A DNA stretch of 64,000 nt from contig NZ_BATQ01000045.1 in the NCBI RefSeq assembly GCF_000739635.1, positions 1 through 64,000 of the forward strand, written 5' to 3'. The notes under the pieces are model-generated. The model worked only from the letters and a program-made list of their open reading frames with translations, did no database searches and was not told the origin of the DNA. The position numbers and the translations under genes were made by a program. Origin of the DNA: Verrucomicrobium sp. BvORR034. Lineage in GTDB: Bacteria; Verrucomicrobiota; Verrucomicrobiia; Verrucomicrobiales; Verrucomicrobiaceae. Position 1 is the stretch's first letter; each line of letters begins with the position of its first letter. Of the stretch, positions 48,239 to 59,354 are shown in pieces.

Positions 48239-49492
48239 CTATCTGGAGGAAACTGACGGAGGGGTGCCGTCGGCAGTAGCCTGGAGCTTCTGGGCACTGG
48301 CTTGCAGATCGTAGAAGGCGTTCTGTAGGGCCATTCGTTTCATCGCCGCAGCCCGCTCGAGTCCGGCAGAGCCAAACCGCCCCATCTGGAGCTTTTGAAA
48401 AGCTGCTGCGAGGGCAGGAGTGGCGCGTTCTGTCACGGCTTGGTCCAGCAAGGCGGCCAGCGCCTTTTCCTGTGAAGGGGGAAACACTTCCATTCTCGCG
48501 ACAAAGACCCGTTTTACCTTCGTGGGTGTCGGGGACAGCTTCAGGGGAAGCACCGCGTTGACCCAGCTTTCGGGCAGCAGGGCCAGGACCCGTGTGCCAG
48601 GCTCCTTGAACCAGGCTTCCTTCCAGGTGGCGACCATCGCGGCAGCTTCGGCAGAGGTCAGTCCCGCGGAGGTGAGCTCCTGCTTCACGGCTTCTGCCAA
48701 TGAAGTGGCCGCCTCGTCCACGGCAGTGGCCGGTGGCTCAATCGCCAGCGCTGGAGAGTCCTTCGGTGCCACAGGCAGGGCGTCCAGCTTGCGCCAGGAG
48801 GCCCGGTTGTTCTCCACTCGCAGCAGGAATGCTCCGGTGATGGGCTCGGAGTAGGTGTTGATCAGTCGCAGTTCCGTATCCGAGGGGGCGGTGACAAGCA
48901 GGGGGATTCTCAAGTCCGCAGCACCACGATAGAAGATGAACTTGTCTGCCTGCGTCGAGCCGGTGGGGTAGGTGGAGCGGACAATCCAGGCGTCGGGCAC
49001 CTCCCGGGCGTGAGCATAGTGATCGCCCCGGCCGCGAGGCGCGGGGGGAATCTGGGCAAGTGCCGTCTTGTCATCCGGAGGCAGCAGCTCAAACCGCCAC
49101 TCCACTGGGGTCGCAAGGTTGACTGGCTCGCCCGTCTTCGCGGTGAGGGCGAAAGGGAACGTTGCGGGATAAGGGAACCACTCGGTGATCCGGCCGCTCT
49201 CCATGGTCACGCCGGCCGTGGCCTTCATGGGAGCCTGAGGATAAAAGTACAACACCGGCGTCTCCATGCGCAGCAGAGTGCCGGCTACGCTTTTGCCCTG
49301 GAAGGGGTTGTTCCCGACGAAGATTGGTAACCCGGCGAGATCTGCCGAGGGTTGGTACCATTGGAGAGGCGCTCCGTCTGATCCCGCGACTTGGGTCATC
49401 GTTCCCCACTCATGGACGTAGTAGTTTTCGGCCGACAAGGCGATGGCATTTGCCGCGATGACTGCCACCAGGGTCAAGATCGAGGTTTTCAT
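48239..49492 (-). CDS. Secreted hypothetical protein
   Basis: 417 residues with a signal peptide (TLVAVIAANAIALSA). It starts YYVHEWGTMTQVAGSDGAPL and contains LRMETPVLYFYP, ITEWFPYPATFPF, KFIFYRGAADLRIPL and LLPESWVNAVLPL. The first half looks like a beta-sandwich and the second is largely helical. Proteins with this HEWGT start are seen in Verrucomicrobiota and other environmental bacteria, without a known role. It stands alone. Confidence 0.75.
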   Translation of the reverse strand: MKTSILTLVAVIAANAIALSAENYYVHEWGTMTQVAGSDGAPLQWYQPSADLAGLPIFVGNNPFQGKSVAGTLLRMETPVLYFYPQAPMKATAGVTMESGRITEWFPYPATFPFALTAKTGEPVNLATPVEWRFELLPPDDKTALAQIPPAPRGRGDHYAHAREVPDAWIVRSTYPTGSTQADKFIFYRGAADLRIPLLVTAPSDTELRLINTYSEPITGAFLLRVENNRASWRKLDALPVAPKDSPALAIEPPATAVDEAATSLAEAVKQELTSAGLTSAEAAAMVATWKEAWFKEPGTRVLALLPESWVNAVLPLKLSPTPTKVKRVFVARMEVFPPSQEKALAALLDQAVTERATPALAAAFQKLQMGRFGSAGLERAAAMKRMALQNAFYDLQASAQKLQATADGTPPSVSSR

Positions 49493-51765: not shown

Positions 51766-54700
51766 ATGCGCACTTATCTTTCCCTTATACTGTGCTGGCT
51801 GGCCATCGGCCCGCTTGCCGTCCTGGCGCAAAGCGGTGGAGGCGAGGCCGGCGAGCTCTACTTCAGGGGCTACATGCTGAAAAACGAGGCGGAAAAGCTG
51901 GAGCAGTCAAACGATCTGGCTGGTGCTCAAGCTAAATACGAAGAAGCCCGGCAACTGGTCGCCAAGGTTTCGCAAAATTTTCCGCAATGGCAGCCAGAAG
52001 TGGTGACCTATCGCCTCAAGGCGATTGAACAGTCCCTGGAACAGCTTTCCGCCAAACTCGGCGGAGCCAGGCCTGCTCCCGTAGCGGCCGCGCCGACGGC
52101 TCCGGCTCCGGCTAGCCCCAAGACGGTTTCCCCTGGAGCAACCGGCGGCGGCGGTGTGTCGCGTCCTCCAGTTGGTGAGATCCCTCCTGCATTGCCCCCG
52201 GGCAATATGGCAGTGGAAGACCTCACCAAGCAGTACCTTGCCCTGCAGCGCAAGAACGCGGAGATGGCCGCCCAGATCAAGGCCTACGACGAAAGCTACA
52301 ACGCTACCCTTCAGGAAAAGAACCGCGCCCAGCAGGAGAAAATGCTCCTGGAGCGCCAGATGAAAGACCTCAATGAGAAGGTCGATTCCCTGAGCCAGGC
52401 GACCAAGACTCGCGACACGACCTCCAAGTCCGAACTGGAGAAGGCGCGCAACGAGGTGAAGATGGTGTCGGATCTTCTGGAAAAGACCACCAATCAGCTC
52501 ACGGAGTCCACCAAGGTGATGGATTCCTTGCTGAAGGAGAAGGAGTCCCTTCAGGAAACTCAGCGTCGTTTGGAAAACGAGATCGACGTCATCAAGAAGG
52601 ACAAGCCGGAAGACTTCAAAAAGCTCCTGGCGGACAAGGACACTGCCCAGAAGAAACTTGAGGCTGACCTCGTCGAGGCGCGCAAAGGGGCTCAGGAAGC
52701 GCTCGATCTGCGCAAGACCATTGCGGAAAAGGAAACCGCTCAAAAGAACCTGGAAGGTGAGATCGAGACGCTGAAGGGGGAGTTGCGCAGTGCAAAGAGC
52801 GGATCGCCGATGTCCGTCCAGCTTAAGAAAAACGTGACCGAGAAGGAAACACTCCAGAAGCAGCTGGAGTCTGAACTCGCCGATGCCAAGCTGAAGGCCA
52901 AGGAGAACGAGGATCTAAAAAAGACCATGGCCGAGAAGGACGTGGCCCAGCGTCGCCTGGAAGCTGAGCTCGCCTCCGCCCGTCGGGACGCCATGTTGTC
53001 CGATGAGCTCAAGAAGACCATTGCGGAGAAGGATCTCGAGCGCCAGAAGCTGGAAAACGATCTGGCCCGGGTGGAAGTGGACCTCGCCGAAGCTAAAAAA
53101 GGCGTGGTGATGTCCGCTGAACTGCGTCGCACCGTCACGGAAAAGGAAGCGCTTCAAAAGAAGCTGGAGACCGAACTGGCCGACGCCAAGAAGTTTGCCC
53201 AGGAAGTGGACGAGCTAAAGGCCTCGATCGCCACGAAGGATGCCGCCGGCAAGAAACTTGAAACGGAGCTGGCCACGGTGAAGTCGGATCTGGAGTCTGC
53301 CCGCAAAGATCTGACGACGGCCAAAGCTGATGCGGCAGGTGCCTCCGCCCTGCGCAAGACCATCAAGGAGAAGGAAACCTTGCAAACCAAGTTGGAAGGG
53401 GAGCTTGCTGCCGCCAAAAAGACCGCAGGAGAAGTGCCCGGCTTGAAGTCCTCCATCGAGGAGAAGGATGAGGCCAGTGAAAAACTTTCGGCAGAGCTCA
53501 CCAAGGTGAAGTCGGACCTGGCCGCTGCCCGCAAGGAGTTGACCACGGCGAAAACCGATGCGTCCACGGCATCGACCCTCAAGAAGTCCATCAACGAGAA
53601 AGAAGCCGCCCAGAAGAAGCTGGAGGCGGATCTGGCCCTGGCCCAAAAAGGGGCGAAAGAGGCAGCCGAGTTGAAGAAGACGATCATGGAGAAGGATGCG
53701 CTCCAATCCAAGCTTGAAGGTGATCTGGCGAGGCTGCGGGTGGAGCTGGCATCAGCCAACAACACGGCCGTGAAGTCCACGGACCTGAAGAAGAGCATCG
53801 CCTCCATGGAGGCCACCCAGCAGAAGCTGGAGGCTGAACTCACTGCGGCCAAACAAGGTGCCGCTGAGGCTGAAGCGTTGCGCGTGGCCATGGTGGACAA
53901 GGACGTGCTGCAAAAGAAGCTGCAGGATGAGCTGACCCGTTTGGAGGCCGAGCTCGTGGAGGCCCGTCGTGGTGCGGCGCTGGCGGAGGAAATGAAGCGA
54001 ATGATTGTCGAGAAGGATGCCACCCAGAAGCAGATGGAGGCAGATCTTGCCAAAGTGCGCCAGGAGCTCGAAAGCACCAAGAAGGAGAAGTTCCAGTCCC
54101 AGGAGATGGCCAAGCTCTCCGCCAGCAAGGCGGCCACGGAAAAGAAGCTTGAGTCAGACCTCGTGAAGATGGAGATCGATCTGGCAGCGGCTCGCCGCAT
54201 GGCCCAGCAGGCCGACGAACTCAAGAAGCAGCTTGCTGACAAAGAAGCGCTCTACAAGCAGCTCCAGCAGGAACTGGCCGAGACCAAGCTTGAAGATTCC
54301 ATTCGCAGCGATGACTTCCGTATGCAGCTTGCGGAGAAGGATGCCTCGCACCGGAAACTGGAGGCGGCTCTTGCTGCCGCCACCAAGGATGCTCCCAAGC
54401 CCGAGGACCTGCGCCGTCTGATGACGGAGAACCAGCGCCTCAAAGATCAGCTCGAGGAGGCCTCTCTCCACGTGGCCAATCTAAAAGACGAAGGGTTGCG
54501 CAAGGACGCGGAAATCACCGCTCTGAAGACTCAGATCACCGGCATCCAAGGGGAACTGGTCCGGCTGCGCCAGGAAAACACCGTTTACCAGACCCAGGTG
54601 GCAGATCTCACCGTCAAGCTCAAGGAACTGAGCCGTGAGCTGGACAAGCAGCCGAAGACCCAGGTGGCTGGCGCGGTCAGTCCGGGAGAATCGGCCCGAC

Positions 54701-55635
54701 TTTCCCAGGAAAACGAGATGCTCCGCAACATCATCATGCGCCAGCTGCGCCAGCAGGAGCGCCAGCGTCAGGCGAAGGAGATCGTCATTGGCGAGATGAA
54801 GAAGCTTGAGAGCTCCTCCATCGCCCTCATGCAGAATCTTGAGGAGATGACGGCAGGCAAGATCATGGTCACCGTGGAGGAAGAGCCTCTCTTCAGCGAA
54901 CCCCAGTTGAAGGAGATCTTCGCTGCCAGCGGGGTGAATGTGACGCTAGAGACCACCAGTGGTCGGTCTCCCGCCTCAGCCGGTGCCGCTGCGGCCCCCC
55001 GCCGCGTGCTTGCTTATGATGCGTCTGAGGAAGAGCGCCTCATGGCCCATGCGGAAGAGGTGCTGATTCGCAGCGACTACGCGGGGGCCGCTGTCGCCTA
55101 CCAGGACGTGCTCCGTGCCAATCCCAAGAACATCACCGCGCTCACCAGCCTGGCTGGCATTCGCCTGCAGGAAGGCAAGTATGAGGAGGCGGAGGTTATG
55201 CTGCAGAAATGCCTCGTTTATGATCCCGAGAATCCCGTGGCCTTCTACCGCCTGGGCGTGAGCTACTTCCAGCAGAGCCGGATGGACGAGGCCTATGCCA
55301 TGTTCGCCAAGAGTGTGGAGAAGAGCAATGACAACGCCCGCTCCCGTCACTACATGGGCATCATCGCCACCAAGATGGGCAACCGCGCGAAGGCGGAGGC
55401 CGAGTTCAAGGGGGCGCTGGCCATCGATCCTGGCTACGGAGATGCCCACTTCAATCTGGCAGTGCTCTATGCCACTGCGAATCCTCCCAACTGGGCTCTC
55501 GCCAGACAGCATTACAAAAACGCCCTGGCTCGCGGAGTGAAGGCTGATCCTACAATGGACAAGCTGATCCGGGACACCCAGGCCCCCAACCCGGCGGTGC
55601 AGACCCGGGAAACCGCCGCCACTGTCCCCTATTAA
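51766..55635 (+). CDS. Exported coiled-coil protein with quantised modules and C-terminal TPR repeats
   Basis: 1289 residues from ATG 51766, which begins the signal peptide MRTYLSLILCWLAIGPLAVL; the frame is open further upstream. A Pro/Ala-rich part (about 105-145) is followed by continuous coiled coil. Residues 315-881 consist of 16 modules, each starting like LKKTIAEKDxxQKKLExELA: seven are 31 long, six 38, two 45 and one 32. A further helical part and a Val/Pro linker lead to TPRs from about 1090 (VLIRSDYAGAAVAYQDVLRA, CLVYDPENPVAFYRLGVSYF, ALAIDPGYGDAHFNLAVLY). It may be a long periplasmic spacer or scaffold. It is followed by a foldase gene in the same direction. No known family is recognised for the whole. 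Confidence 0.9.
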   Translation: MRTYLSLILCWLAIGPLAVLAQSGGGEAGELYFRGYMLKNEAEKLEQSNDLAGAQAKYEEARQLVAKVSQNFPQWQPEVVTYRLKAIEQSLEQLSAKLGGARPAPVAAAPTAPAPASPKTVSPGATGGGGVSRPPVGEIPPALPPGNMAVEDLTKQYLALQRKNAEMAAQIKAYDESYNATLQEKNRAQQEKMLLERQMKDLNEKVDSLSQATKTRDTTSKSELEKARNEVKMVSDLLEKTTNQLTESTKVMDSLLKEKESLQETQRRLENEIDVIKKDKPEDFKKLLADKDTAQKKLEADLVEARKGAQEALDLRKTIAEKETAQKNLEGEIETLKGELRSAKSGSPMSVQLKKNVTEKETLQKQLESELADAKLKAKENEDLKKTMAEKDVAQRRLEAELASARRDAMLSDELKKTIAEKDLERQKLENDLARVEVDLAEAKKGVVMSAELRRTVTEKEALQKKLETELADAKKFAQEVDELKASIATKDAAGKKLETELATVKSDLESARKDLTTAKADAAGASALRKTIKEKETLQTKLEGELAAAKKTAGEVPGLKSSIEEKDEASEKLSAELTKVKSDLAAARKELTTAKTDASTASTLKKSINEKEAAQKKLEADLALAQKGAKEAAELKKTIMEKDALQSKLEGDLARLRVELASANNTAVKSTDLKKSIASMEATQQKLEAELTAAKQGAAEAEALRVAMVDKDVLQKKLQDELTRLEAELVEARRGAALAEEMKRMIVEKDATQKQMEADLAKVRQELESTKKEKFQSQEMAKLSASKAATEKKLESDLVKMEIDLAAARRMAQQADELKKQLADKEALYKQLQQELAETKLEDSIRSDDFRMQLAEKDASHRKLEAALAAATKDAPKPEDLRRLMTENQRLKDQLEEASLHVANLKDEGLRKDAEITALKTQITGIQGELVRLRQENTVYQTQVADLTVKLKELSRELDKQPKTQVAGAVSPGESARLSQENEMLRNIIMRQLRQQERQRQAKEIVIGEMKKLESSSIALMQNLEEMTAGKIMVTVEEEPLFSEPQLKEIFAASGVNVTLETTSGRSPASAGAAAAPRRVLAYDASEEERLMAHAEEVLIRSDYAGAAVAYQDVLRANPKNITALTSLAGIRLQEGKYEEAEVMLQKCLVYDPENPVAFYRLGVSYFQQSRMDEAYAMFAKSVEKSNDNARSRHYMGIIATKMGNRAKAEAEFKGALAIDPGYGDAHFNLAVLYATANPPNWALARQHYKNALARGVKADPTMDKLIRDTQAPNPAVQTRETAATVPY

Positions 55636-55745: not shown

Positions 55746-57302
55746 ATGCTCGAGTTTCTTCGCCGCCAGACCAAGCCCATCATGATCTCGCTTGCCGCGA
55801 TCATCATCATTGCGTTCACCTTCTGGGGAGGGCAGACCAATCGGAAAGAGCCGGGCATGCATTCCGCTGAGGACACGGCGTTCACGATCTACGGCAAGGA
55901 ACACACCTTTGCCGAACACTCCCGCCTGGATCGCCTGTACCGTCTGGCCTACGGCATGGGGCTTTCTTCTCCCACGGGTCGCGGCGACTTCGCCAGCACC
56001 ATGGGCTTTGTGGTTCAGAAGTATCAGGCTGAGGGGATGATCCCGGTGGACTTTGCGTTCAACCTCCTGGTGCTGCGTGAGGAACTGGAGAAGAACGGGG
56101 TGCAAGCCACCAACGAAGAGGCTCGTGAAGCCTTCCGGAAGCTTCCTATTTTCCAAAGCAAAGATGGCAACTTTGATGGCAATGTGGCTGAACAGTTCCA
56201 AAACAACATCGGTGCGTTGGGGCTGCGTGACACCGATGTCTTCGATGTCCTGCGTGACTGGATCGGCTTCCAGCGCCTGCATGAGATCGTGGCTGGCAAC
56301 GCCGTGCTGAACAACAACGTTTCCAAGCAGCTCTACGCTTCCACGTTCCAAACCGTCAAAGCGGCCTCCATCCCTTTCGTCACGGACGACTTCAAGAAAG
56401 ACGCCAAGCCGACGGATGAAGAGATCGCCAAGTATTACGAAGAGAAGAAGGAAATATTCAAAACCGCACCCAAGCGCGCCATTTCCTATGTGCTGTTCGC
56501 AAAGCCGGATGTGGAGAAGCTCAATGCAGAAGACACCGTCAAGGCCCGCAACGAGTTTGCTGCCAAGGTGAACGACTTCGGTGTGGCGGCAATTGCCCCA
56601 GGAGCAAAGCTTGAAGACGTGGCCAAGAACGCCAAGGTGGAGCTCAAGACGGAGGCCCTCTTCACCATGGAAGCTCCTCCTGAGGCTCTGAAAGAAGAAC
56701 CCAGCCTCATCAGCGAGATCTTCCGCATTGATCCCAAGAACCGTCCAGTGAGCGATCCGGTGGAAGGCTCGAAGGGCTACTACTTCTTCAGCGTGACGCA
56801 GGAAGAAGAGCCCAAGCAGCAGGAACTGGCTGACGTGAAGGAAAAAATCACGGAACAGCTCACCGCCCAGAAAGCCCAGGAGCTGATGACGAAGGCGGCC
56901 AGCGAGGCCCGCAAGAAGCTGGAAGAAGCCATCAAGGGTGGCAAGACGTTCGAAGAGGCGGCCAAGGAGGCCAACCTCACACCGCAACAGCTGCCTGAGT
57001 TCTCCCCGTCCAATCCGCTGATGGACCGCACCAACGGCCGCGAAATCGCTGCCGAGACCCGCACCACCCCGGCTGGCAGCTTCACGAAGCCCCTGCCGAC
57101 CGAGAACGGTGTGCTGCTCGTGTACGTGATCTCCAAGGAGCTTCGCAAGCGCGAAGACGGCGCTACCACCAAGGCCAACATTGAGAAGTCCCTCGACGGC
57201 ATGATGCAGGGTGATATTTTCCGCGCTTGGTTCCAGCGTCGCCGTGACGAGGCCAAGGAAAACGCCGACCCGCTTCAGCGCCGCCTTCTTGGCCTTCAGT
57301 AA
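55746..57302 (+). CDS. SurA/PpiD-like periplasmic foldase
   Basis: 518 residues. A single N-terminal helix (PIMISLAAIIIIAFTFWGG) anchors it in the inner membrane, as in PpiD. A SurA_N-like helical chaperone part (about 60-220, REELEKNGVQATNEEAREAF) is followed by a parvulin-type segment whose start RAISYVLFAKPD departs from the usual xAxHIL consensus, then long helices with GGKTFEEAAKEANL and a second PPIase-like end (AGSFTKPLPTENGVLLVYV). It probably assists folding of exported proteins, with doubtful isomerase activity. It lies 110 bases after the coiled-coil gene and just before a TPR gene, perhaps one operon. Confidence 0.83.
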   Translation: MLEFLRRQTKPIMISLAAIIIIAFTFWGGQTNRKEPGMHSAEDTAFTIYGKEHTFAEHSRLDRLYRLAYGMGLSSPTGRGDFASTMGFVVQKYQAEGMIPVDFAFNLLVLREELEKNGVQATNEEAREAFRKLPIFQSKDGNFDGNVAEQFQNNIGALGLRDTDVFDVLRDWIGFQRLHEIVAGNAVLNNNVSKQLYASTFQTVKAASIPFVTDDFKKDAKPTDEEIAKYYEEKKEIFKTAPKRAISYVLFAKPDVEKLNAEDTVKARNEFAAKVNDFGVAAIAPGAKLEDVAKNAKVELKTEALFTMEAPPEALKEEPSLISEIFRIDPKNRPVSDPVEGSKGYYFFSVTQEEEPKQQELADVKEKITEQLTAQKAQELMTKAASEARKKLEEAIKGGKTFEEAAKEANLTPQQLPEFSPSNPLMDRTNGREIAAETRTTPAGSFTKPLPTENGVLLVYVISKELRKREDGATTKANIEKSLDGMMQGDIFRAWFQRRRDEAKENADPLQRRLLGLQ

Positions 57303-57343
57303 TCGCCAGATCCCTGAGATCGGGGTGGCCAACGCATGTGAAC

Positions 57344-57700
57344 ATGAGTGACAACCCCGATCGCGACTTCCTCTATGACGAGGCCAGCGGCCTCGTCGCC
57401 ATTGGAGAAATCGAGGAGGCCGTGACCCTCTACCGACGCTCGGTGGAGCTGGATCCGGCCTACTTTGACGGCTGGCATGCCTTGGGCATGGCCCTGCTGA
57501 AATCAGGACAGGTCAAAGAGGCCATCGGTGCTGGATTGATGGCCACCACCCTCCGCCCCAACGACCTTCTGGCCTGGACCGCCCTGTCCCAGATGTACGT
57601 GAAGAATGGCCAGATTGCCGAGGCAGAAGACGCCAAAGGCAAGGCCCGGATCCTCTCCCTGGGTGGCAAAGTTGTGCAGGCTCCCAAAGACGGAGCCTAG
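57344..57700 (+). CDS. Small TPR protein
   Basis: 118 residues from ATG 57344; a GTG two codons earlier is an alternative. Three TPR-like units are visible: DEASGLVAIGEIEEAVTLYR, FDGWHALGMALLKSGQVKEA and LAWTALSQMYVKNGQIAEAE. There is no signal peptide, so it should be cytoplasmic, unlike the two exported proteins encoded upstream. It may be an adaptor. It starts 41 bases after the foldase stop. Confidence 0.83.
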   Translation: MSDNPDRDFLYDEASGLVAIGEIEEAVTLYRRSVELDPAYFDGWHALGMALLKSGQVKEAIGAGLMATTLRPNDLLAWTALSQMYVKNGQIAEAEDAKGKARILSLGGKVVQAPKDGA

Positions 57701-57759
57701 TCGCCAGCGACCGTTCGGGGGCGTTTTTCCCCATGACAGAGGCAGCTTTTTGCAGCATG

Positions 57760-57767
57760 GAAGGAGG
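57760..57767 (+). promoter_or_regulatory. Near-perfect ribosome-binding site of metG
   Basis: AAGGAGGT lies three bases upstream of ATG 57771. It decides the start, since the frame is open for another 165 bases upstream into the TPR gene. Confidence 0.85.
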
Positions 57768-57770
57768 TCC

Positions 57771-59354
57771 ATGCCCAAGCCCTATTACATCACGACCGCC
57801 ATTGACTACACCAATGCACCGCCGCACATCGGCCATGCTTATGAGAAGGTGTTGGCGGACGTCATGGCCCGCTTCCAGCGGCTGAACGGGCGTGAGGTGT
57901 ACTTCCTCACCGGGGTGGATCAGCATGGCCAGAAGGTGCAGAAGAGCGCCGACAAGGCTGGCATCAGCCCTCAAGACTTCGTGGACGGGATTTCGCAGAA
58001 GTTCATTGAGCTCTGGGACAAGCTGGGTGTCCGCTATGATGGTTGGGCTGCCACCACCGCGGAGCCTCACAAGAAAGTCGTGCGGGCCATGCTGCAGAAG
58101 CTGCATGATGCCGGTCAGCTCTACAAACAGAGTTACACGGGCTTCTACAGCGTGCGCCAGGAACAGTTCCTCACGGACAAAGAACGTGGTCCAGACGGGA
58201 CCTTTGGTGAGGAATGGGGCGAAGTCGTGGAGTTGGAGGAGTCAAACTGGTTCTTCAAGCTCAGCGAGCACGTGGACTGGCTGCGTGCCTACATCAAGTC
58301 CCACCCGGATTTCATCTTCCCGGCCTTCCGCACCAACGACGTGCTCAATGCCCTCGAAAACTCAGTGGGACAGGACCTGTGCATTTCCCGGCCGGTTGAG
58401 CGTCTGAGCTGGGGCATCCCGCTGCCTTTTGACGAGGGGTTTGTCAATTTCGTGTGGTTCGATGCGTTGACGAACTATATCAGCTTCGCCGGGTACCTCT
58501 CGGATGAGGTCGGCAATGAGGGGCTTCCTGAGTTCAAACGCATCTGGCCTGCCGATGCCCATGTCATCGGCAAGGACATTCTCGTGCCGGCGCATGCCAT
58601 CTACTGGCCCATCATGTTGCATGCCTTGGGCTTCGCAGATGACCAGATGCCCAAGCTCATTGTCCACGGCTGGTGGAACATCAAGGGGCAGAAGATGAGC
58701 AAGACGCTCGGGAACGTCGTGGACCCCAACGAGGTGTCCAACGTGTTTACTCCTGAAGCCCTGCGCTATTACCTCATGAGGGACATGGCCACGGGTTATG
58801 ATGCCGACCTCAGCGAGGAGCGCATGCAGATTGCCTACAATGAGCTTGCTCGCGGACTGGGCAATCTCCTGAACCGTGCGCTCAACATGTCCCAGAAGTA
58901 CCGTGAGGGCGCGCTCTCCACGGGCGGCGGCTACGACGATGAGATCAACCAGGCCCTGCGCCAGACGGTGGCAGCGGCTCCGGCGGCGTATATCGAGGAA
59001 ATGAACAACTGGGCAATCCACAACGGCATCGCCGAGGCGTGGAAGATCGTGACCCATGCGAACCAGTTCGTGGACCTGACCCAGCCGTTCAAGCTGGCCA
59101 AGGATCCGGAGCAGGCCGCCCGTCTGGACAGTGTGCTCTACCATCTGGCAGAAGCCCTGGCACACGTGAGCATCCTGCTAAGCCCCATCATGCCTGAAGC
59201 CTGCAAGAAGCTTCAGACCCAGCTGGGCTGGACTCCTGCCGAGGGGTTCCAGGTAAAGGATCTTGCCTGGGGACTCCTGCCCGAGGGGCATCAGCATGGC
59301 CTGCCGGTTCCGTTGTTCCCCCGCATCGAGTTTGGGGAGGCTGAGGCCAAGTAG
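57771..59354 (+). CDS. metG: Methionyl-tRNA synthetase
   Basis: 527 residues from ATG 57771. The HIGH motif is in TNAPPHIGHAYEKVLADV, followed by YFLTGVDQHGQKVQKSA; WGIPLP and VNFVWFDALTNYISF mark the active site, and KMSKS reads GQKMSKTLGNVVDP. The C-terminal part is the anticodon-binding helical domain. The four-Cys zinc knot of the E. coli enzyme and the C-terminal dimerisation domain are absent, as in short bacterial forms. It charges tRNA-Met. A palindromic repeat block follows. Confidence 0.96.
   Translation: MPKPYYITTAIDYTNAPPHIGHAYEKVLADVMARFQRLNGREVYFLTGVDQHGQKVQKSADKAGISPQDFVDGISQKFIELWDKLGVRYDGWAATTAEPHKKVVRAMLQKLHDAGQLYKQSYTGFYSVRQEQFLTDKERGPDGTFGEEWGEVVELEESNWFFKLSEHVDWLRAYIKSHPDFIFPAFRTNDVLNALENSVGQDLCISRPVERLSWGIPLPFDEGFVNFVWFDALTNYISFAGYLSDEVGNEGLPEFKRIWPADAHVIGKDILVPAHAIYWPIMLHALGFADDQMPKLIVHGWWNIKGQKMSKTLGNVVDPNEVSNVFTPEALRYYLMRDMATGYDADLSEERMQIAYNELARGLGNLLNRALNMSQKYREGALSTGGGYDDEINQALRQTVAAAPAAYIEEMNNWAIHNGIAEAWKIVTHANQFVDLTQPFKLAKDPEQAARLDSVLYHLAEALAHVSILLSPIMPEACKKLQTQLGWTPAEGFQVKDLAWGLLPEGHQHGLPVPLFPRIEFGEAEAK

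Follow-up and report, generated by a model that had tools for sequence, protein, structure and literature searches.

CpoB (YbgF) is a periplasmic trimeric coiled coil with TPRs that regulates PBP1B together with Tol-Pal; it is a 28-kDa protein whose coil is short and which has three TPRs, and it is encoded in the tol-pal operon (PMC7391070). Natural variation of coiled-coil length in heptad steps has been described for phytochrome-linked diguanylate cyclases: the lengths of their linkers differ for the most part by multiples of seven, and a −4 class was explained by overwinding, with 10 residues in 3 turns (PMC9587094). The insertion of three residues into a heptad coil, the stammer, occurs naturally in L1ORF1p (PMC5940361) and in the stalks of trimeric autotransporters (PMC4786415). 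In natural coils, stutters outnumber stammers, which are strained, and where a known coil departs from the heptad its period mostly exceeds 3.5 (PMC4786415, PMC5940361).

The window analyzed here, a stretch of 64,000 nucleotides of Verrucomicrobium sp. BvORR034, contains an open reading frame of 1,289 codons starting with the ATG at 51766 (51766..55635, + strand), which codes for a predicted exported coiled-coil/TPR protein, and a match to this protein was obtained in all 57 of the related genomes searched. Like CpoB, the protein is predicted to be exported and has its TPR domain at the C terminus with the coiled coil ahead of it, but it differs in an additional hairpin and linker at the N terminus, in a coil of 230 to 900 residues, and in its gene neighborhood; the genes around it encode citrate synthase, a nitroreductase, a PpiD-like protein, a small TPR protein, and MetG rather than the Tol-Pal components. 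The CpoB/YbgF family model was absent from the Pfam and NCBIfam matches, and the architecture resembles that of CpoB without membership in its family. Whereas the diguanylate cyclase linkers are short signaling linkers between two domains, a long tandem array is present here, and while L1ORF1p and the autotransporter stalks contain single stammers, the +3 offset in this protein recurs per module. MamA (PDB 3vty) and other bacterial TPR proteins have a fold like that of the C-terminal TPR domain, but MamA is devoid of the coil, and identity with MamA was rejected (49.5 bits versus an NCBIfam equivalog cutoff of 200 bits). In literature searches, neither this protein nor a matching array was found to be described. 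The explanation that we prefer, with a probability of roughly two in three, is that of an exported coiled-coil/TPR protein in which an array of hinge-bearing segments forms a segmented rod, most likely as a scaffold of the cell envelope.

Domain layout and gene neighborhood

The protein begins with a putative signal peptide (residues 1 to 21, MRTYLSLILCWLAIGPLAVLA, with QS following the cleavage site; 51766..51828, +), which was read by eye and has similar N termini in the homologs; a lipobox cysteine at the cleavage site was absent when the sequence was read by eye. Alignment then delineates a conserved TPR-like helical hairpin (residues 28 to 95; 51847..52050, +), a variable Pro/Ala-rich linker (residues 96 to 150; 52051..52215, +; omega, 0.28 to 0.41), and an N-terminal coil common to the short relatives (residues 151 to 283; 52216..52614, +), the latter of which has a hydrophobic period of 3.52 over residues 190 to 283. 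A Pfam scan of residues 1 to 283 gave no matches, and the hairpin (NEAEKLEQSNDLAGAQAKYEEA...FPQWQPEVVTYR) is recognizable across the order despite this. Residues 284 to 881 (52615..54408, +) constitute an array of 17 modules that was delimited with a position-specific scoring matrix (PSSM) and is present only in three Verrucomicrobium genomes. The hinge DAPKPED immediately precedes the C-terminal coil, which was defined by alignment together with the conserved helix ENEMLRNIIMRQLRQQERQRQAKE (residues 882 to 1030; 54409..54855, +), and the AlphaFold model breaks the helix at residues 875 to 878.

The TPR domain (residues 1088 to 1270; 55027..55575, +) was matched above the cutoff by Pfam TPR_19 (4.5e-15), TPR_17, TPR_1, and TPR_2, and AlphaFold folded the same residues into hairpins with a pLDDT of ~90. 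The first-pass annotation had offered a TPR head as part of one reading; the domain is real, but its position is the C-terminal end. Searches of PDB by sequence and by fold returned TPRs only, with MamA (PDB 3vty) as the best fold match. Matches of the coil to SMC, rootletin, and HC2 in Pfam, NCBIfam, and PHROGs were rejected as low-complexity coil similarity, and the matches were otherwise to TPRs only.

Downstream of the gene lie a PpiD-like peptidyl-prolyl isomerase (55746..57302, +; Pfam Rotamase_2 and SurA_N_3), which has one apparent N-terminal membrane helix, and a small TPR protein (57338..57700, +) followed by metG, all in recurrent synteny. The order of coil-TPR, PpiD-like, small TPR, and metG genes is complete at L054, L059, L066, and L067 and extends up to the small TPR gene at L053 and L056; of these, L066 and L067 come from another family, and the synteny is thus present in some genomes of two families. 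It was not seen in the other sampled relatives, including L055 and L057 (large genus g8) and L058. The small TPR frame runs into the long metG frame (57606 to 59354). The metG domain match starts at residue 41 to 43 of the frame from 57657, and the true metG start is probably downstream of the long-frame start. Elsewhere in the window, 48239 to 49492 (−) encodes a 417-residue protein with a signal-peptide-like start and without a Pfam match.

The module array, its register and its origin

Residues 315 to 881 had been cut into 16 modules in the first-pass annotation, and this cut is exact, with the listed lengths reproduced and a sum of 567. However, a 20-column iterated PSSM built from the heads converged immediately on 17 heads, confirming the 16 and adding one at residue 284 that had been missed. 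The heads are located at residues 284, 315, 353, 384, 415, 453, 484, 529, 560, 605, 636, 674, 705, 743, 781, 819, and 851, and the module lengths in order are 31, 38, 31, 31, 38, 31, 45, 31, 45, 31, 38, 31, 38, 38, 38, 32, and 31 residues; as had been claimed, they equal 3 modulo 7, with 32 (4 modulo 7) as the only exception among the 17. The heads scored 12.5 to 37.3 bits (leave-one-out), compared with 3.6 for the best nonhead position in the protein and a maximum of 11.2 when the array was shuffled 300 times with its composition preserved. The array is genuine. Mean pairwise identity between modules over the 31 shared positions is 40% for amino acids and 53% for nucleotides, and Tandem Repeats Finder did not detect the array at the DNA level because the modules are too diverged there.

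For the examination of register, the modules were set in a common frame of 31 columns (20 for the head and 11 for the tail), with any additional 7 or 14 residues placed between head and tail. Hydrophobic residues fill columns 1, 5, 15, and 19 in 17, 16, 17, and 17 of the 17 modules, respectively, and Ala occupies column 22 in 15 and column 26 in 13 of them. Columns 8 and 12 are expected core positions too, and with Lys in 16 of 17 modules at the former and mostly Gln at the latter, these two would weaken the coil. Layers thus placed at columns 1, 5, 8, 12, 15, 19, 22, 26, and 29, and then at 32, amount to 9 layers per 31 residues. Columns 20 to 31 contain much A, G, S, and T and an occasional P, and G or P is retained in the tails KSGSP, EVPG, and DAPKPED. 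The hydrophobic periodogram peaked at 3.45 for the array (residues 284 to 881) and at 3.52 and 3.49 for the flanking coils.

AlphaFold modeling covered the window sequence and that of L031, and two sequences went into the models of the C-terminal part and of the array. The C-terminal part was modeled with a pLDDT of 76.7 and a clear TPR domain, whereas the array was modeled, as a monomer and with low confidence (pLDDT, 70.6; pTM, 0.27), as all helix. The periodogram and this all-helical model agree on the helical, coiled-coil-like region of the first-pass annotation, and no globular fold was predicted for the array, again at low confidence; with a period of 3.45 to 3.52 the region is a predicted coiled coil. 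Helix breaks were modeled at residues 343 to 347, 445 to 450, 557 to 560, 665 to 667, 774 to 778, and 875 to 878, and by hand mapping all six lie within module tails or reach into them, the tails accounting for 31% of the array. The low-confidence model breaks 6 of the 17 tails and keeps most junctions helical.

Apart from the window's own genome, the array was found in only two (G002 and G003) of the 57 related genomes, at 94% identity, and a search with the array alone in 387 genomes of the order (three candidates per genome scored) returned G000, G002, and G003 only. A second copy was searched for in the window's own genome, and none was found. Widespread in the family is a short form with a coil of about 230 to 285 residues, which in G001 and the other family members examined has an open frame of roughly 690 to 830 amino acids; these relatives align as residues 1 to 283 joined to residue 851 and onward. 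G001 (L007) belongs to the same genus by placement, lacks the array, and shows ~55% identity in the C-terminal part; its genome is small and incomplete (2.5 Mb, 76% complete). In another family, the coil of L043 (G044:C20:102000-105300) has ~447 residues and is independently lengthened.

The short forms contain the raw material of a module in the segment LxxDLxxAKKGxxKPEE-LKKLIAENxRLKKELE, in which the head Leu usually follows the LE helix end at a spacing of 17, as it does in 16 of the 17 modules, and the last array tail, DAPKPED, retains the ancestral hinge form. In other species the hinge spacing is 16 to 20 and does not change by sevens (segments read by eye). Shift similarities within the array and the presence of the hinge segment in short relatives bear out the growth by duplication suggested earlier, and the array arose when an ancestral segment carrying a helix hinge (AKKG..KPEE-L) was duplicated in tandem. 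Because the short forms hold the hinge with the same spacing of 17, the three-residue offset was inherited and copied with each duplication: the discontinuity that had been noted does recur per module, but as an inherited hinge rather than a ruler mark.

Longer-range duplications were detected at shifts of 76 amino acids over residues 453 to 569 (66% nucleotide identity), 69 over 604 to 692, and 100 over 317 to 394, and these show copying also in units of two or three modules. Modules of the same length are more alike than others (permutation P = 0.009). The lengths were therefore, as judged from these two observations, partly copied and not independently changed, and the array would have taken, at a minimum, about two heptad events (31 to 38 and 38 to 45) and one single-residue event (32). 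Concerted evolution of the modules was rejected, since orthologous modules are 89 to 94% identical compared with ~40% within one protein.

The +3 offset of the hydrophobic seam, with 16 of 17 modules at 3 modulo 7, is that of a stammer-containing coil. Each module boundary could then be a genuine stammer within an uninterrupted coiled coil (31, 38, and 45 residues in 9, 11, and 13 turns, respectively) with an overwound left-handed supercoil of ~3.45 residues per turn, a reading that we regard as doubtful. The sharp 3.45 peak across 598 residues speaks for it, as do the mostly helical junctions of the AlphaFold model and a hinge spacing of 17 in 16 of 17 modules though it is 16 to 20 in relatives. 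A comparison of hinge constraint between the array and its relatives gave very small counts, the hinge having changed in 1 of 17 array modules and in roughly 2 of 5 to 7 close lineages. Against the stammer, duplication alone can pass on a constant spacing, and the ancestral junction often contains Pro/Gly and is as free in length as a loop. Moreover, several tails keep G or P, the modeled helix breaks fall at six tails, and a stammer puts strain on the helix (PMC4786415, PMC5940361). A mean period of 3.45 would be lower than the heptad value and in a regime described as uncommon (PMC4786415, PMC5940361). It is unlikely, in our estimate, that the array is a natural coil of ~600 residues with a stammer every 31, 38, or 45 residues and a continuous supercoil of mean period 3.45.

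Length change in the coil across the family

From an alignment of 72 homologs and a tree of their C-terminal part, we chose 31 nonoverlapping pairs and used those with a coil identity of at least 40%. The coil indels in these independent pairs were of 1 to 4 residues, mostly at the hinge or the coil end, and of 7 (seven times), 14 (twice), 21 (once), and 34 (once) residues. Among indels of at least 5 residues, 10 of 11 in the coil were multiples of seven, whereas for the linker and C-terminal part this was true of 4 of 29 (Fisher P = 1.1e-5; one 74-residue linker gap was left out as a boundary artifact). The net coil lengths of close pairs, 233/226, 277/270, and 281/260, give sevens without dependence on gap placement. 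Heptad-quantized change of coil length is thus real and family-wide; the heptad steps proposed in the first-pass annotation recur in independent lineages against the linker and C-terminal control, although the module lengths on which they had been based are not independent events. Close pairs of short forms often have no coil indel at all.

The 34-residue indel, in L107 (G067:C31:115800-119200), consists of a 17-residue hinge unit present in two additional copies (IDSAEIKRLVAAGERLK and TSEQEVKRLTAENVRLK) and is an independent amplification of the segment that became the Verrucomicrobium array. A coil expansion of 35 residues in G028 (L030) reads by eye as pieces of 21 and 14 residues.

Alternatively, the array could be a neutral repeat expansion, the heptad steps coming only from slippage between heptad-coding DNA repeats and the register being free of selection. 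KERDxAV heptad repeats immediately N-terminal of the hinge vary in copy number among species of the large neighboring genus g8 (L116/L117, L119/L124, L014 to L016, and L100), and for 7-residue events inside such near-identical repeats plain slippage alone may suffice. The expansion and contraction of these repeats, as well as the longer-range duplications in the array, speak for the neutral reading, but heptad indels occur also in nonrepetitive coil, as in L005/L006 (EFEESGKVIESL versus EF-------ESL), and selection on the array, described below, is opposed to it. Neutral expansion is quite improbable as the whole explanation.

Array conservation and the proposed rod

Among the three array species, dN/dS was 0.05 to 0.07 for the array, 0.28 to 0.41 for the linker, and 0.01 to 0.02 for the TPRs, with a synonymous divergence in the array of about 0.4 to 0.9. 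Core columns of the array were variable less often (5 of 102) than other columns (67 of 496; P = 0.012). The array is thus maintained under strong purifying selection with its core columns protected, which argues against neutral expansion.

When the homologs were aligned and their modules listed, module lengths were identical in the three array genomes, and length differences were confined to linkers outside the array; the variation between strains that had been looked for was not found among these species. Module lengths shared at such a synonymous divergence could be taken as the mark of a molecular ruler, its length selected for a fixed distance between envelope layers. Yet close pairs of short forms often lack coil indels, so that constancy needs no ruler; the coil lengths of short forms range widely, and the array is absent from all other relatives, including one in the same genus. 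As a continuous rod the array would measure about 89 nm (598 × 0.1485 nm), which exceeds the usual width of the Gram-negative periplasm. A hinge-rich rod would be a poor ruler, and about 89 nm fits no simple periplasmic width. With most of the family lacking the array and a rod of misfitting length, the earlier suggestion of a ruler-like periplasmic spacer is unsupported, and we hold a ruler to be very improbable.

The comparison shows that the ancestral short form consisted of the hairpin, the linker, a coil with a helix hinge, and the C-terminal TPR domain, and that only in Verrucomicrobium was the hinge-bearing segment repeated, the 598-residue array bearing traces of copying by one, two, and three modules. 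According to the segmented-rod explanation, heptad steps would persist since other lengths break the hydrophobic register, and slippage on heptad-coding repeats may supply part of them. Each module would comprise a coiled-coil segment of 20 to 34 residues and then a weaker Ala/Gly/Ser-rich hinge, making the array a rod in segments, probably flexible and at most about 89 nm long, which may extend the distance spanned from the N-terminal hairpin to the TPR domain. From its architecture, the latter may bind partner proteins, possibly with the neighboring PpiD-like chaperone. Architecture and gene neighborhood together suggest a cell-envelope scaffold role.

In Verrucomicrobium spinosum, transposon-saturation data and targeted mutagenesis exist (PMC12283558) and make the function testable; TPR proteins are not mentioned in the main text of that report. 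If the junctions were true stammers, the coiled coil would be regularly overwound over an unusual length. Quantized coil indels and free indels in the hinge, linker, and TPR part occur side by side in the same protein, a contrast that offers a direct test of selection on register. The family further provides a natural case of coiled-coil rod growth, in which the short relatives, the array, and a second amplification of the hinge unit are all present.
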